Source of the DNA: Collinsella tanakaei
GTDB taxonomy: Bacteria > Actinomycetota > Coriobacteriia > Coriobacteriales > Coriobacteriaceae
Assembly (NCBI RefSeq): GCF_030373545.1
Contig: NZ_JAUDCO010000004.1
Span: 124,001 to 188,000 of the forward strand
Direction: 5' to 3'
Length of the DNA: 64,000 nt
Each line of letters begins with the position of its first letter. Position 1 is the first letter of the stretch. The notes under the pieces were generated by a model. It was not told the DNA's origin. It worked only from the letters and a program-made list of their open reading frames with translations, and did not search any database. Made by a program: the position numbers and the translations under genes. Shown here piece after piece: positions 7,003 to 55,051 of this stretch.

Positions 7003-7029
7003 TGCAGGTTTGCACAATTTGATGCGTGC

Positions 7030-7090
7030 GACGAGTTTGTCCCCGGCGCCATCTTGTCGCGACAAAACGGTGCCGGGGACAAACTTATCG
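7030..7090. repeat. Double GACAAG-type palindrome, copy 3
   Basis: Arms AGTTTGTCCCCGGC and GCCGGGGACAAACT enclose a central TTGTCGCGACAA palindrome. It reads as two repeat units fused head to head. It lies in the 593-base gene-free gap between clpC and disA (6936-7528). That gap otherwise holds the clpC terminator, the 7115-7251 element, repeat copy 4 and the disA leader. Confidence 0.75.
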
Positions 7091-7114
7091 CGCGCGTTGC
7101 TCGCTGTGAGCAGA

Positions 7115-7251
7115 ACCCCCGTTTACGGTTCAGTTTTTGTGGGGCCAGTCGAGTAGGCGCGAAAGTCGCAACTTCGTCACCTGCTGTTTTGTCGAGACAT
7201 GAGGCTCGTCTATCCGACGCCCCTCCGTAAAACCGAACCGTAAACGGGGGT
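7115..7251. repeat. 137-bp element with 23-bp inverted termini
   Basis: The left terminus 7115-7137 (ACCCCCGTTTACGGTTCAGT...) pairs with the right terminus 7229-7251 with a single mismatch. The 91-base interior has no credible coding frame. It could be a MITE-like insertion or a long-stem RNA. Confidence 0.6.
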
Positions 7252-7284
7252 ATGGGGCTTCAAGCATCCTTGCCAGGCGCTTTT

Positions 7285-7318
7285 GCGACAAGTTTGCGCC
7301 CGGCACCATCTTGTCGCG
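7285..7318. repeat. Dispersed GACAAG...CTTGTC palindromic repeat, copy 4
   Basis: GCGACAAG and CTTGTCGC arms around TTTGCGCCCGGCACCAT, upstream of disA. Confidence 0.75.
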
Positions 7319-9297: not shown

Positions 9298-9356
9298 GGT
9301 TTCGGCGCGTTTTCCGTCTGCGCACGCGTCTTGCTTGCTCGCTTGCTGGCGATGTG

Positions 9357-9484
9357 CGCGAAGTGAGTGTGTCGTTTGGGAAACCGTTTGTATACCGTGC
9401 CAGTAGCAATTCATGTACCTGCGAGTTTGACCAAACTGGTCCCCGGTATATCGGGCGTTTCTAAAATGAAGCACTCACTTCGCG
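9357..9484. repeat. 128-bp element with CGCGAAGTGAGTG inverted ends, between ispD and ispF
   Basis: CGCGAAGTGAGTG at about 9357-9369 is the exact reverse complement of CACTCACTTCGCG at 9472-9484. The right end, within an 18-base exact match (9467-9484), recurs at 62147-62164 beside CitMHS. The interior has no convincing ORF. It occupies most of the 346-base ispD-ispF gap (9298-9643). The rest of the gap holds a possible -10 (TATGAT, 9603) and the ispF SD. Confidence 0.55.
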
Positions 9485-9643
9485 AACAGTGGGCCTTCAG
9501 GGCGCTCGTAGAGAGCGCTTCGGTGTCCTCGCGTCGGTTTCTTCCGGGTGTTTCGCTGCCTTTTCGGGTCCGTGCCCGCCGGGTGCCGTGCGCGGTGCAT
9601 GCTATGATGCTGGTTTGAGATTCGCGAGTAAGAGAGGCTCCTC

Positions 9644-10388: not shown

Positions 10389-11858
10389 ATGAAGATCTAC
10401 AACAGCAGCACGCACAAGAAGGAAGACTTCCAGCCCATCAAGGAGGGCAAGGTCCGCATGTACGTGTGCGGCCCCACCGTCTACGACAACATCCACATTG
10501 GCAACGCGCGCACGTTCATCAGCTTCGACGTGATTCGCCGCTGGCTGATCGCCTCCGGCTACGAGGTCACGTTCGCGCAGAACCTCACCGACGTGGACGA
10601 CAAGATCATCAACCGCGCCAACGAGCAGGGCCGTACGGCCGAGGAAGTGGCGACCGAGTTCTCCGACAAGTTCATCGCCGTCATGCACAAGGCCAACGTC
10701 ATGGACCCCGATGTGCGTCCGCGCGCGACCAAGGAGATCGGCCCCATGATTGGCATGATCAAGACGCTCATCGAGCAGGGTCACGCCTATGCGGCCGACA
10801 ACGGCGACGTGTACTTCGCGGTGCGCAGTGACCCTGCCTACGGCGAGGTCTCCGGCCGCAAGATCGACGACCTCATGGTGGGCGCGCGCATCGAGGAGAA
10901 CGAGGACAAGAACGACCCGCTCGACTTCGCCCTGTGGAAGGCGGCCAAGCCCGGCGAGCCCATGTGGAACTCGCCGTGGGGCAAGGGCCGTCCCGGTTGG
11001 CACACCGAGTGCGCGGCGATGGTCCATCGCTATCTGGGCACGCCGATCGATATCCACGGCGGCGGCTCCGACCTGGCCTTCCCGCATCACGAGAACGAGT
11101 GCGCGCAGGCAACCTGCGCCTGGCACGAGGGCTTCGCCAACACCTGGATGCACACGGGCATGCTGCTCGTCGACGGCGAGAAAATGAGCAAGTCGCTCGG
11201 CAACTTCTTCACGCTGGAGGAGGTGCTCGAGAAGCATTCCGCGGCGGCACTTCGCCTGCTCATGCTGCAGACGCACTACCGCTCGCCGCTCGATTTCTCC
11301 TGGGAGCGCCTCGAGGGCGCCGAGAACTCGCTCGCCCGCATCGCCGGCACGGTGCAGAACCTGCGCTGGGCTGTCTCGCATGCCGAGGGCGAGCCGGATG
11401 CCGAGCTCGCGGCGAAGCTCGACGCTGCCGTCGATGCGGCGAAGGCCGAGTTCGAGGCGCAGATGAACGACGACTTCAACACGGCGGGCGCGGTGGCTGC
11501 GTACTTCCAGCTGGTGACCGAGGCGAACACGTATCTCGACCAGGCCGGTTCGGCGGTCGATACGGACGTTGTTGCCGGTGCCGCCGCGAGCATCGCCGGC
11601 GCGTTCGCGGTTCTGGGCATCGAGCTGCCGGAGCCCGAGGAGGAGCTGCCGGTCGGGCTGCTCGGCGTGGCCGCGGGCCTGTGCGCCTACACGGGCGACG
11701 ACGTGAACGAGGCCGCCGAGCGCATCCTCGCTGCTCGCGCCGAGGCACGTGCCGCCAAGAACTGGGACGTGGCCGACGCCATCCGCGATCAGCTGCGCGA
11801 CATGGGCCTCATGATCGAGGACACCGCCGCCGGCTCCCGCATCAAACACGTAAAATAA
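10389..11858 (+). CDS. cysS: Cysteinyl-tRNA synthetase
   Basis: 489 residues. Seen: MYVCGPTVYDNIHIGNAR with the zinc Cys and the HIGH-type motif HIGN at about 36-39, the WHTECAAM zinc site, the HHENECAQ site, and KMSKSLGN starting at residue 265. It charges tRNA-Cys in the cytosol. The frame is open upstream of 10389, but homology starts at MKIYNSST, so this ATG is preferred although its SD is weak. Confidence 0.95.
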   Translation: MKIYNSSTHKKEDFQPIKEGKVRMYVCGPTVYDNIHIGNARTFISFDVIRRWLIASGYEVTFAQNLTDVDDKIINRANEQGRTAEEVATEFSDKFIAVMHKANVMDPDVRPRATKEIGPMIGMIKTLIEQGHAYAADNGDVYFAVRSDPAYGEVSGRKIDDLMVGARIEENEDKNDPLDFALWKAAKPGEPMWNSPWGKGRPGWHTECAAMVHRYLGTPIDIHGGGSDLAFPHHENECAQATCAWHEGFANTWMHTGMLLVDGEKMSKSLGNFFTLEEVLEKHSAAALRLLMLQTHYRSPLDFSWERLEGAENSLARIAGTVQNLRWAVSHAEGEPDAELAAKLDAAVDAAKAEFEAQMNDDFNTAGAVAAYFQLVTEANTYLDQAGSAVDTDVVAGAAASIAGAFAVLGIELPEPEEELPVGLLGVAAGLCAYTGDDVNEAAERILAARAEARAAKNWDVADAIRDQLRDMGLMIEDTAAGSRIKHVK

Positions 11859-11900
11859 CCCTAGGGATTTTTTTACATTGCACAGGTAGAGCACGAGACG

Positions 11901-21691: not shown

Positions 21692-21706
21692 GGCTCGCTC
21701 CTTCGC

Positions 21707-21767
21707 GGGAAAATGGTGCCTGTCCCCTTTTTCCCACGGGAAAAAGGGGACAGGCACCATTTTCCCA
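21707..21767. repeat. REP-like perfect palindrome (GTGCCTGTCCCC type)
   Basis: GGGAAAATGGTGCCTGTCCCC... (21707-21735) pairs perfectly with 21738-21767. The core GTGCCTGTCCCC resembles REP sequences associated with REP-associated (TnpA-REP) transposases in other bacteria; no such transposase is in this window. A fragment recurs at 25585-25613 between leuD and leuB. Confidence 0.75.
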
Positions 21768-21793
21768 CAGGGGACCGTTTGCGGGATTCTCGC

Positions 21794-44166: not shown

Positions 44167-44346
44167 GGGGTCTCCCTGGTCGGTTCGTTGCTTTTATGAT
44201 ACCTGCCGCAAGAAAAACGTGCTCGCCGTGTCCGCTTTGTGCCGGCTGCGTGCGGATGTGCTGCGCGAACGGACGCGAACGGGGAATATACTTGGTCGTA
44301 TGTCGTGCGCGCTGCCGTGTGGTCGGTGCGCGAGGAGGGGAGCGAT

Positions 44347-45483
44347 ATGGATCAGGAACGGTATCTGGGAGAGACGACGCCCAAGCTCGGCTTCGGCTTC
44401 ATGCGCCTGCCGAAGCTCGAGGGCGGCTCGTTTGACATCGAGCAAATCAAAGCCATGGTCGACCGCTTCATGGATGCGGGACTGACGTATTTCGATACCG
44501 CGTACGTGTATGACAAGGGCGGCTCTGAACGCGCACTTAAAGAGGCGCTCGTCGATCGCTACCCGCGCGAGCGCTTCACCGTCGCCACGAAAGTGAATGC
44601 ACGGGTCGCGACCTCGGCCGAAGACGCCCGCCAGCAGCTCGCTACGAGCCTGGAGCGCACGGGCGCCGGGTATTTTGACTACTACCTGCTCCATGCGGTG
44701 CAGGAGAGCAACATCGGCGCATACGACGAGTACGGCCTATGGGATTTCGTGCGTGAGCAGAAGGAGGCCGGCACGATCCGCCACTGGGGCTTCTCGTTCC
44801 ACGGTACCCCGGCGCTGCTGGAGGAGCTGCTGACCAAGCACCCGGACGCCGAGTTCGTGCAGCTGCAGATCAACTATGCCGACTGGGAGCACCCCGAGGT
44901 CGCGTCGCGCACCGTCTACGAGATCGCCCGTAAGCACGGCAAGCCCGTGGTGATCATGGAGCCGGTCAAGGGCGGCATGCTCGCCAACCCGATTCCGCAG
45001 GTGCAGGAGCTGCTGCGCGCGGCGAACCCCGACGCGTCCTTCGCCTCGTGGGCGATCCGCTACGCTGCCTCGCTCGAGGGCGTCATCACGGTGCTTTCCG
45101 GCATGTCCAACCTCGAGCAGGTCGATGACAACATCTCGTACATGCGCGATTTCCAGCCTCTGAGCGCCGAGGAGCAGCGCGTGATCGGTGCGGCCCAGGA
45201 AGTCTTCGCAAGCATGGACTCCATCCCCTGCACGGCGTGCCGGTACTGCACGGACGGCTGCCCGATGCACATCCCCATCCCGAGCATCTTCGCCGCACGG
45301 AACAAGCAGACCGTATGGGGCCTTAACGAGCAGGCGAAAAAGGACTACGAGGAGGCTGCCGGCGTCGAGGGCGCGGGCAGGGCGGACGCGTGCATCGCGT
45401 GCGGTCAGTGCGAAGCGGCATGCCCACAGCACATCCACATCATCGATGCGCTGCGCGACTGCGCGGAGGCCTTCGAAGGGTAG
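44347..45483 (+). CDS. Aldo/keto reductase with C-terminal 4Fe-4S domain
   Basis: 378 residues. The TIM-barrel aldo/keto reductase part (about 1-275) has LGFGFMRLP, FDTAYVY and the usual catalytic Asp/Tyr pair. The C-terminus carries two ferredoxin-type CxxCxxCxxxCP motifs (CTACRYCTDGCP and CIACGQCEAACP). This fused form is widespread in anaerobes and is thought to move electrons from ferredoxin or NADPH to an unknown carbonyl. ATG 44347 follows AGGAGGGG. Confidence 0.9.
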   Translation: MDQERYLGETTPKLGFGFMRLPKLEGGSFDIEQIKAMVDRFMDAGLTYFDTAYVYDKGGSERALKEALVDRYPRERFTVATKVNARVATSAEDARQQLATSLERTGAGYFDYYLLHAVQESNIGAYDEYGLWDFVREQKEAGTIRHWGFSFHGTPALLEELLTKHPDAEFVQLQINYADWEHPEVASRTVYEIARKHGKPVVIMEPVKGGMLANPIPQVQELLRAANPDASFASWAIRYAASLEGVITVLSGMSNLEQVDDNISYMRDFQPLSAEEQRVIGAAQEVFASMDSIPCTACRYCTDGCPMHIPIPSIFAARNKQTVWGLNEQAKKDYEEAAGVEGAGRADACIACGQCEAACPQHIHIIDALRDCAEAFEG

Positions 45484-45507
45484 ATGGTACTAAGACGCCT
45501 GGGGCAT

Positions 45508-45608
45508 GCCAGCCGGGGATGAAAACACCCTAGGGATTATTTTACATGGCGTATTTTTAAAATACGCCATGTAAAATAATCCCTAGGGTGTTTTCATCCC
45601 CGGCTGGC
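45508..45608. repeat. 101-bp perfect palindrome (CCCTAGGG type), bidirectional gene end
   Basis: Left arm 45508-45557 and right arm 45559-45608 are exact reverse complements, 50 bases each, with one unpaired T at the centre. The arm contains ATGAAAACACCCTAGGGATT and ATTTTACATGGCGTATTTT. It lies between the convergent aldo/keto reductase and ABC ATPase genes and probably terminates both. It shares CCCTAGGGATT...TTACAT with 50020-50105 and 11862. Confidence 0.9.
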
Positions 45609-45643
45609 CGGAGGGCAGTGCTTTGATGTCCGAGACCGGAGCT

Positions 45644-46438
45644 CTAGCTGAGCAGCATGCGGTCGTTGGCGAGCTCGCCGCCCGAGACCTCCTCGAACTT
45701 CTGGAGCAGGTCGGCCACGGTGAGCGCGCGCTTCTCCTCGCCGGCCACGTCGTAGATGATGCGGCCCTCGTGCATCATGATCAGACGGTTGCCCAGACGG
45801 ATGGCGTCGTTCATGTTGTGGGTGACCATGAGGGTGGTCAGATGGTGCTCGCCGACGATCTTCTCGGTGAGCTCGAGCACCTTGGCGGCCGTCTTGGGGT
45901 CAAGAGCGGCGGTGTGCTCGTCGAGCAGCAGCAGCTTGGGCTCGGTGAGGGTCGCCATGAGCAGCGTCAGTGCCTGACGCTGGCCGCCGGACAGCAGGCC
46001 GACCTTGCTGGTCAGGCGCTTCTCGAGCCCCAGTCCCAGCTCGCGCAGGCGCTCGGCGTACTCGTCCTTCTCGGCCTTCGTGACGCCCCAGGCAAGGGTG
46101 CGCGTCTTGCCGCGGCGCTTTGCCATGGCGAGGTTCTCGACGATCTGCATGTCAGCAGCGGTACCCATCATGGGGTCCTGGAACACGCGGCCCAGGTACT
46201 TGGCGCGCGCGGGCTCGGACAAAAGCGAGATGTTCTTGCCGTCGAGCTCGATCACGCCCGAATCGATGGGGTACACGCCGGCCACCATGTTCATGAGGGT
46301 GGACTTGCCGGCGCCGTTGCCGCCGATGACGGTCACGAAGTCGCCGGGGGCCAGGTGCAGGTTCACGTTGACGAGCGCACGCTTCTCGTTGATGGTGCCA
46401 GCGTTAAAGGTCTTGCAGACATCCTTGACGTTCAGCAT
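45644..46438 (-). CDS. ABC transporter ATP-binding protein
   Basis: 264 residues. Walker A GGNGAGKST (about 39-47), LSGGQRQAL signature, Walker B LLLLDEHTA and switch His in VTHN. Together with the permease and the two lipoproteins upstream it forms a COG1101/COG4120/COG2984-type importer. Members of that class carry amino acids such as tryptophan, or unknown substrates. It starts 3 bases after the permease stop. It is the last gene of the reverse-strand unit. Confidence 0.92.
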   Translation of the reverse strand: MLNVKDVCKTFNAGTINEKRALVNVNLHLAPGDFVTVIGGNGAGKSTLMNMVAGVYPIDSGVIELDGKNISLLSEPARAKYLGRVFQDPMMGTAADMQIVENLAMAKRRGKTRTLAWGVTKAEKDEYAERLRELGLGLEKRLTSKVGLLSGGQRQALTLLMATLTEPKLLLLDEHTAALDPKTAAKVLELTEKIVGEHHLTTLMVTHNMNDAIRLGNRLIMMHEGRIIYDVAGEEKRALTVADLLQKFEEVSGGELANDRMLLS

Positions 46439-49760: not shown

Positions 49761-50019
49761 GGGCGCAACCTTCCTTCCTCGGGATATCCCGAACAATCTG
49801 TCTCGTGGGCGCCAGGCGGCGCTCCGGTCCAATAGTGCGAAGTAAGCCAACATGATAGGGGTGGGCTCCGCGCGCCCGGTACGCTCGAGCTGGGTGACAC
49901 CAATTGTTAATCTTCGCGCCGGTGGGCGAGAGAAACACCGCGCTTGCCGATGCTCGGATGCGATTTCTTTCCGGGTCCTTGTGACATTGGGCGGAGCTTG
50001 CCCCGCCACGCTCCCCGGG

Positions 50020-50105
50020 ATGTGATTTCACCCTAGGGATTTTCTTACATTGGGCAGGGTTTGCCCTGCCCAATGTAAGAAAATCCCTAGGGTGAAATCA
50101 CATCG
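50020..50105. repeat. 86-bp perfect palindrome (CCCTAGGG type)
   Basis: Arms 50020-50060 and 50065-50105, 41 bases each, perfect, with a TTTG loop. Arm sequence includes GATGTGATTTCACCCTAGGG and TTTTCTTACATTGGGCAGGG. It lies in the 475-base gap 49761-50235. The gap also contains a degenerate echo (ACATTGGGCGG...CCCCGCC at 49985), the asnS end hairpin and the start region of binding protein 2. Confidence 0.9.
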
Positions 50106-54918: not shown

Positions 54919-54961
54919 GCGCGGATGTGATTTCACCCCTGGGGTGAAATCACATCCGCGC
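54919..54961. repeat. 43-bp perfect palindrome after the YbaK gene
   Basis: 21-base arms GCGCGGATGTGATTTCACCCC with a single central T. It shares GATGTGATTTCACCC with the 50020 element. It lies 9 bases after the stop and may act as terminator. Confidence 0.8.
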
Positions 54962-54964
54962 CCG

Positions 54965-55051
54965 CGGGTCATTTGGGGACGTGCTCCATCCAACCCATTC
55001 GGCACCCTTGGTGCCGAATGGGTTGGATGGAGCACGTCCCCAAATGACCCG
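54965..55051. repeat. 87-bp near-perfect palindrome
   Basis: 42-base perfect arms 54965-55006 and 55010-55051 around CTT; the arm reads GGTCATTTGGGGACGTGCTC then CATCCAACCCATTCGGCACC. It directly follows the 43-bp palindrome, giving two stacked hairpins between ybaK and the dehydrogenase promoter. Confidence 0.9.

Follow-up and report, generated by a model that had tools for sequence, protein, structure and literature searches.

How a bacterial chromosome comes to carry, and to keep, two long DNA arms without a single mismatch is the question raised by a palindrome at positions 45508-45608 of the 64,000-nt stretch of Collinsella tanakaei DNA analysed here (the window). A repeat scan of the window places its arms, to which no strand is assigned, at 45508-45557 and 45559-45608, that is, 50 nt each and 100% complementary around a 1-nt centre, exactly as the initial annotation had described them; at the base composition of the window, a perfect palindrome of 50 pairs would be expected by chance about 10^-23.6 times per 64 kb. 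Folded as single-stranded DNA, the 160-nt junction reaches -67.5 kcal/mol (z = -15.1), and none of 200 shuffled sequences was as good. The junction is also convergent, as had been noted: a plus-strand ORF (44239..45483, +), which we take to encode an aldo/keto reductase with ferredoxin-type cysteines, ends at 45483, 25 nt ahead of the palindrome, and a minus-strand ORF (45644..46438, -), presumably for an ABC transporter ATPase, has its stop at 45644, 36 nt past it. The initial annotation had further taken the perfect arms to argue for recent spread or active maintenance rather than for simple termination. The explanation that we consider probable, with some room for doubt, is that the palindrome belongs to a TIRYT/RAYT-type system as one of its paired, REPIN-like elements, with a core cognate to a Y1/HUH transposase encoded elsewhere in the genome (C12:94108) and with arms that are kept identical by templated DNA copying. 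Any role of the palindrome at this particular junction is one that we infer.

A dispersed family of inverted repeats

A search for related palindromes in this genome and its relatives had been proposed, with an isolated single copy named as the outcome that would speak against the proposal. Relatives proved plentiful: in the window's own genome (a Collinsella, 2,196,718 bases) the pattern ACCCTAGGGATT marks 61 half-sites (29+32, with 0+0 for a reversed-pattern control), and the family amounts to 25 inverted pairs and 11 solo or truncated units, i.e. about 36 elements. The spacing between paired motifs is mostly 52, and the pairs share a common layout, in which a locus-specific outer arm is followed by the unit RTKAAAACACCCTAGGGATTATTTTACAT or variants of it, a locus-specific inner stem, a short centre and then the mirror image of the whole; the outer arms vary from locus to locus, yet complement the opposite side of their own element. 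At 45508-45608 motif search and layout resolve the left outer arm GCCAGCCGGGG (45508..45518, locus-specific, with its mirror at 45598-45608), the left repeat unit ATGAAAACACCCTAGGGATTATTTTACAT with the cognate core CCCTAGGG (45519..45547), the locus-specific inner stem GGCGTATTTT / T / AAAATACGCC (45548..45568), the right repeat unit as an inverted copy of the left one (45569..45597) and the right outer arm CCCCGGCTGGC (45598..45608).

All 25 pairs lie between predicted genes, and the family is one of hairpin-forming inverted units dispersed outside genes. According to a home-made codon-usage gene call, 5 pairs are in convergent, 13 in tandem and 2 in divergent intervals and 5 are at contig edges, so that the convergent site of the palindrome is just one context among several. 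The solo units are near-palindromic, and several are found upstream of genes or in divergent intervals. Contigs C5, C8, C9, C10, C11 and C15 of this genome, and many of an uncultured Collinsella MAG (G022), end within or near family palindromes; the assemblies therefore probably undercount the elements.

The window itself holds a second paired element at 50019..50104, whose 41-nt arms were found in the repeat scan to contain the same inner words as the palindrome, and a solo unit at 11850..11878 (+, motif at 11858), in the syntenic place of which C. tanakaei ET10 (G016) has CCCCAGGGG. The repeat scan also returned a short palindrome, GATGTGATTTCACCCC T GGGGTGAAATCACATC, at 54919..54961, which looks like the two outer halves of a pair with the ancestral motif, joined through loss of the middle. 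In the MAG, solo units that are single in the window's genome are tandemly duplicated with a spacing of about 24 bases (L135, L134), and at the site of element E3 insertion-sequence-like inverted ends (TATAGGACAAAAAGTGTGCTAT) break the palindrome centre (L151 and L143). No description of a palindrome family with the CCCTAGGG core was found in the open-licence literature searched, where absence is no proof.

The associated transposase and its presumed target

A profile search with PF01797 (Y1/IS200-like) finds three genes in the window's genome, and the one at C12:94108 fits the suggestion, also made in the initial annotation, that a RAYT-like transposase be looked for: a solo unit of the family, ATGTAAAATAACCCTAGGGATTTTTTTACAT, stands directly before its ribosome-binding site. 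In this genome only the upstream unit was found at the gene, and the orthologues in ET10, L184 and L185 have units on both sides. The protein scores 48.5 bits against PF01797 (cut-off 23) and 68.8 bits against NCBIfam NF047646 (REP_Tyr_transpos), under that model's cut-off of 80. Residues H60, H62 and Y119 are invariant in 10 aligned enzymes and correspond to the HUH pair and the tyrosine of Y1/HUH transposases, Y119 being presumably the catalytic residue in view of its RYxHxNP context. A structural model of the MAG orthologue (90% identical; mean pLDDT 85.9) has as its first PDB match the RAYT-REP complex 4er8 (E 1.6e-7), which we take to be an E. coli protein, and shows five helices at 189-248, in the C-terminal region. 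Pfam HTH matches are weak: three of 10 members match HTH_3, with a best E of 0.045. The third Y1 gene (L050 1343-1699) encodes a short, apparently 5'-truncated transposase of the IS200/IS605 type, above the cut-off of NF033573, and no family motif was seen beside it.

Across genomes, the motif follows the enzyme. Among 58 genomes, 34 of them congeners, ACCCTAGGGATT was found only in the window's genome, in the MAG (14+22) and as one match in G056, from the same order, while AACCCCWGGGGTT has 44 sites in ET10, 2 in the MAG, 1 in the window's genome and none in the other 40 of 43 genomes of the genus. A looser pattern that covers both states returns 30+34 matches in the window's genome, 14+15 in the MAG, 47+53 in ET10, single matches in G034 and G008, and none in the other 38 of the 43. 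Identity to the C12 transposase is 90% for the orthologue in the MAG, 74% in ET10 and 54% in G034, with two further relatives (L184 and L185) at 68% and 66%. The core CCCTAGGG thus occurs in the window's genome and in the MAG with its 90% orthologue, and CCCCWGGGG occurs in ET10 with its 74% orthologue. Since the transposase genes of ET10, L184 and L185 are all flanked by CCCCWGGGG units, and that of G034 (L187) by CCTCTAGSG-like ones, CCCCWGGGG is likely to be the older state, with CCCTAGGG derived in the window's genome and the MAG. Intermediate cores exist as well (AACCCCTAGGGTT and CCCCTGGGA in the window's genome, CCCCAGGGA in ET10). Judged from these comparisons, the repeat motif co-varies with the transposase sequence across species, with few species and some two to three independent states behind the link, and both the family and its transposase are, by sequence, real. 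The three sister species offer a natural experiment in specificity, in which the enzymes are 74-90% identical and the presumed target differs by two bases between orthologous sites.

Age of the elements and identity of their arms

Flank comparison identifies 16 sites of the window's genome at which ET10 has a motif-bearing element in the syntenic place, namely E0, E1, E2, E5, E7, E8, E14, E15, E18, E20, E21, E26 and E29, the elements at 45508 and 50019, and the solo at 11858. These were found from the motif places of ET10 and from four DNA query regions, and 16 of 36 is accordingly a lower bound. At all 16 the core is CCCTAGGG in the window's genome and CCCCWGGGG in ET10, except at E26 (CCCCAGGGA in ET10); E1, E2, E14, E15 and E21 are solos or irregular pairs in ET10. 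The genes that flank the shared junctions differ by about 7-13% between the two genomes; with counterparts at syntenic places, the elements are old and not merely the product of a recent burst. At the junction of the palindrome itself, ET10 has GGCGCCCCCCGACGTCAAATAACCCCAGGGGTTTTTCTACATAGAGGAGCC and its mirror, an equally perfect palindrome that is different nearly throughout, and the MAG has an element of the type seen in the window's genome, split across two contig ends and with a C-to-T change on both arms. Perfect arms at the same junctions with different sequences reflect continuing correction of the arms more than youth. Of the two causes put forward in the initial annotation, active maintenance is thus upheld and recent spread is not, given that elements including this one occupy the same junctions in ET10. 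The genome comparisons yielded no clean-ended pair of empty and filled sites. At the place syntenic to E0, another species (G017, L279) has a perfect but unrelated palindrome that contains GGGGACAGTCCC, as though different systems had made repeated use of one intergenic site.

How the arms are kept is indicated by the kind of pairs that they form. In the fixed core of 50 paired elements, 1908 pairs comprise 1899 Watson-Crick, 2 G.U and 7 other pairs (these counts omit L001, L273 and L311, which the pairing step passed over because the motif expression also matches at their centres; L001, examined separately, is perfect), whereas in the 10 bases beyond each end pairing falls to 129 of 480 (27%), the chance level. 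As a control, 41 terminator-like hairpins at the same loci of the window's genome have 55 G.U pairs among 479, although RNA folding, in which G.U is allowed, was used to find them, so that their selection was not matched to that of the elements. Within the 28-nt unit, the two arms of one element differ at 0.08 positions in the window's genome (25 elements), 0 in the MAG (6) and 0.22 in ET10 (18), compared with 3.75, 3.4 and 5.42 between elements.

When orthologous elements are compared, their differences are mirrored on the two arms. Each arm has about 6 of them at E0, 9 at E18, 1 at E26 and 7 at the element at 50019, those between this last element and its ET10 orthologue lying near the centre. 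At E7, where the copy in the window's genome is at a contig end and can be seen on one arm only, there are 4 differences. The direction of change can be read at E0 (C1:168425), where the window's genome alone has C>T, G>A and A>G on both arms and the MAG and ET10 keep the older state. The 2-nt centre of E0 is TT in place of AA, as expected from inversion of the spacer, which taken alone would be a weak hint, two substitutions being an alternative. Some elements show one-sided decay, as in the outer arm of E26 in the window's genome and in the 7 core mismatches other than G.U.

Because G.U pairs are nearly absent and arm changes are mirrored, and RNA selection would tolerate G.U, the complementary changes favour templated DNA copying, such as template switching during replication, over selection on RNA. 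Parts of PMC8604942 and PMC8794818 describe template switching in DNA as a source of mirrored changes that can also invert the centre. The perfection of the arms is therefore best read as the putative outcome of continuing templated DNA correction, and is no sign of youth. A search for the nuclease subunit SbcD (TIGR00619) gave no match in the window's genome, whereas 13 of 14 control genomes match; SbcCD cleaves long palindromes in E. coli, according to a reference title in PMC7999016, and the missing recognisable SbcD may let long perfect palindromes survive.

Mechanism, alternatives and known systems

On the favoured explanation, an element would consist of two inverted copies of a unit of about 29 nt, with CCCTAGGG as the signal to which a single-strand transposase of the Y1/HUH type is matched. 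Acting on single-stranded DNA, this enzyme would recognise the hairpin formed by a unit and cut it, and would formerly have spread the units; later, one arm would template the synthesis of the other when the replication fork switches templates, a step that hairpins would make easier. The core would drift with the specificity of the enzyme, either with unrecognised units being replaced or lost, or with recognition itself under selection. A bolder version, which seems to us rather unlikely but worth stating, is that the transposase nicks one unit, whereupon the 3' end folds back and copies the other arm, so that the arms regain their perfect match and, as the specificity of the enzyme changes, the core of every dispersed member is overwritten where it stands (CCCCAGGGG to CCCCAGGGA to CCCTAGGGA); the family would evolve in concert, driven by its transposase and needing no fresh insertions. 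If so, the transposase would maintain the elements, beyond merely spreading them.

The leading alternative is that the elements act as RNA hairpins at the ends of transcripts, as terminators or as 3' stabilisers, and that their arms stay complementary through selection on the RNA stem. The intergenic position predicted for all 25 pairs, 18 of them convergent or tandem, would suit such a role, as would the lack of any other hairpin terminator at the window junction; the scarcity of G.U pairs (2 of 1908, against 55 of 479 in the terminator-like hairpins of the same loci), the two pairs in divergent context and a motif that tracks a transposase, which no RNA function would predict, make it unlikely. 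A simple terminator in particular was rejected, since G.U pairs are lacking and a terminator search at 45300-45800 found no T-tract; on this point the initial annotation was right, the arms apparently being actively kept identical. The near absence of G.U also makes the choice between RNA-hairpin selection and DNA template copying directly testable. Regulator binding sites in double-stranded DNA, possibly for the C-terminal helical domain of the transposase and with the solo units as operators, would account for the near-palindromic solos upstream of genes or in divergent intervals, and a C-terminal helical region is predicted in the enzyme; they would leave perfect locus-specific arms 10-30 nt from the motif unexplained, the HTH matches are weak, and we give this little credence.

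It is just as improbable that the palindromes spread recently and ready-made, in the manner of MITEs, and are perfect through youth. Some 36 elements in one genome and near absence from most congeners would be expected of such spread, but the outer and inner arms are locus-specific and unshared between copies, and the elements at the 16 syntenic sites in ET10 led to its rejection as sole cause. Insertion into the loops of pre-existing hairpins may account for the oldest events and is unlikely as a general cause, because L003 has a very long extra perfect arm (half-length 73). That the palindromes are assembly artefacts of contig ends is hardly credible: contigs of the window's genome and of the MAG often end inside them, and one contig end of the MAG (L133), which mirrors its whole flank, looks artefactual, but most elements of the window's genome and of ET10 are contig-internal, with unlike flanks on each side and in independent assemblies. 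Growth of palindromes by the copying of one flank was likewise set aside, its sole case being L133, where the flank is mirrored to the contig end and which is treated as an assembly artefact.

Three kinds of known system come closest. Passages of PMC3733652 describe TIRYTs as RAYT-like genes that have inverted repeats of a non-GTAG kind on their flanks, with some dispersed, partly self-complementary families, and most TIRYTs fall in TnpAY1 subclass 2.1 according to PMC6006769, sections of which report no REP-like sequences near those genes. As far as these accounts go, the Collinsella system resembles the TIRYT/TIR systems ('TIRtrons', PMC3733652; TnpAY1 subclass 2.1, PMC6006769) in its Y1/HUH enzyme, which is about 250 aa long and has a predicted helical extension at the C-terminus, in non-GTAG inverted repeats that adjoin the gene (on both sides in ET10, L184 and L185) and also form a moderately abundant dispersed family, and in repeats that are partly self-complementary and come in single and dimer forms. 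It differs in its core (CCCTAGGG or CCCCWGGGG, against GGGGWSAS in many, though not all, described TIRs), in its long perfect locus-specific arms, in a motif that, at orthologous places, changes along with the enzyme and, relative to subclass 2.1, in having a gene that adjoins a unit. With REPINs and RAYTs, as presented in parts of PMC3116915, it shares extragenic inverted units separated by a spacer that form a hairpin, a cognate Y1 transposase and compensatory changes, which that paper reports for the hairpins of REPINs without using the word 'template' in its main text; passages of PMC8266576 show RAYTs at work on REP hairpins in single-stranded form, some of which contain perfect palindromes. 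Unlike REPINs so described, the Collinsella family has tens rather than hundreds of copies, arms that are nearly fully complementary into locus-specific sequence with almost no G.U, and no general GTAG/GTGG foot: its unit feet are mostly TGTAA or TGCAA rather than GT[AG]G, with TGTAG in a minority only. With inverted repeats homogenised by template switching (quasipalindrome correction; portions of PMC8604942 and PMC8794818) it has in common perfect arms, a possible spacer inversion and the mirrored substitutions between orthologues seen at E0, E18, E26 and the element at 50019, whereas here a whole transposase-linked family is concerned and not isolated inverted repeats. Since both the GTAG foot and the GGGGWSAS motif are lacking, the family, to go by its sequences, works like a REPIN and stands nearest to TIR repeats without being a plain member of either. 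TIRYT-type enzymes are common, yet the literature searched, as far as its text was available, says little about their repeats and contains no test of a substrate.

Units with GGGGACGTGYTCC flank the second Y1 gene of the genome (contig C3; L051 1156-2277), four of them on its upstream side and three on its downstream side, and a palindrome with the GGGGACGTGYTCC motif lies at 54965-55051 of the window; the C3 transposase and these units appear to form a second system of the same sort as that of C12. Other Coriobacteriia also have palindromes beside Y1 transposases, perfect or nearly so and about 130, 84 and 74 nt long (in L190, where it precedes the gene, L202 and L209), and long perfect arms may be general for this class of enzyme. 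An inverted repeat at 9353-9488 of the window, AAGTGAGTG...CACTCACTTCG, recurs in the MAG beside E14 (L146 near 880-1100), a place where the window's genome lacks it, and is perhaps another dispersed element. Imperfect inverted repeats at 7024-7318 and 21696-21777 of the window contain GGGGACA words like the GGGGWSAS motif of described TIRs.
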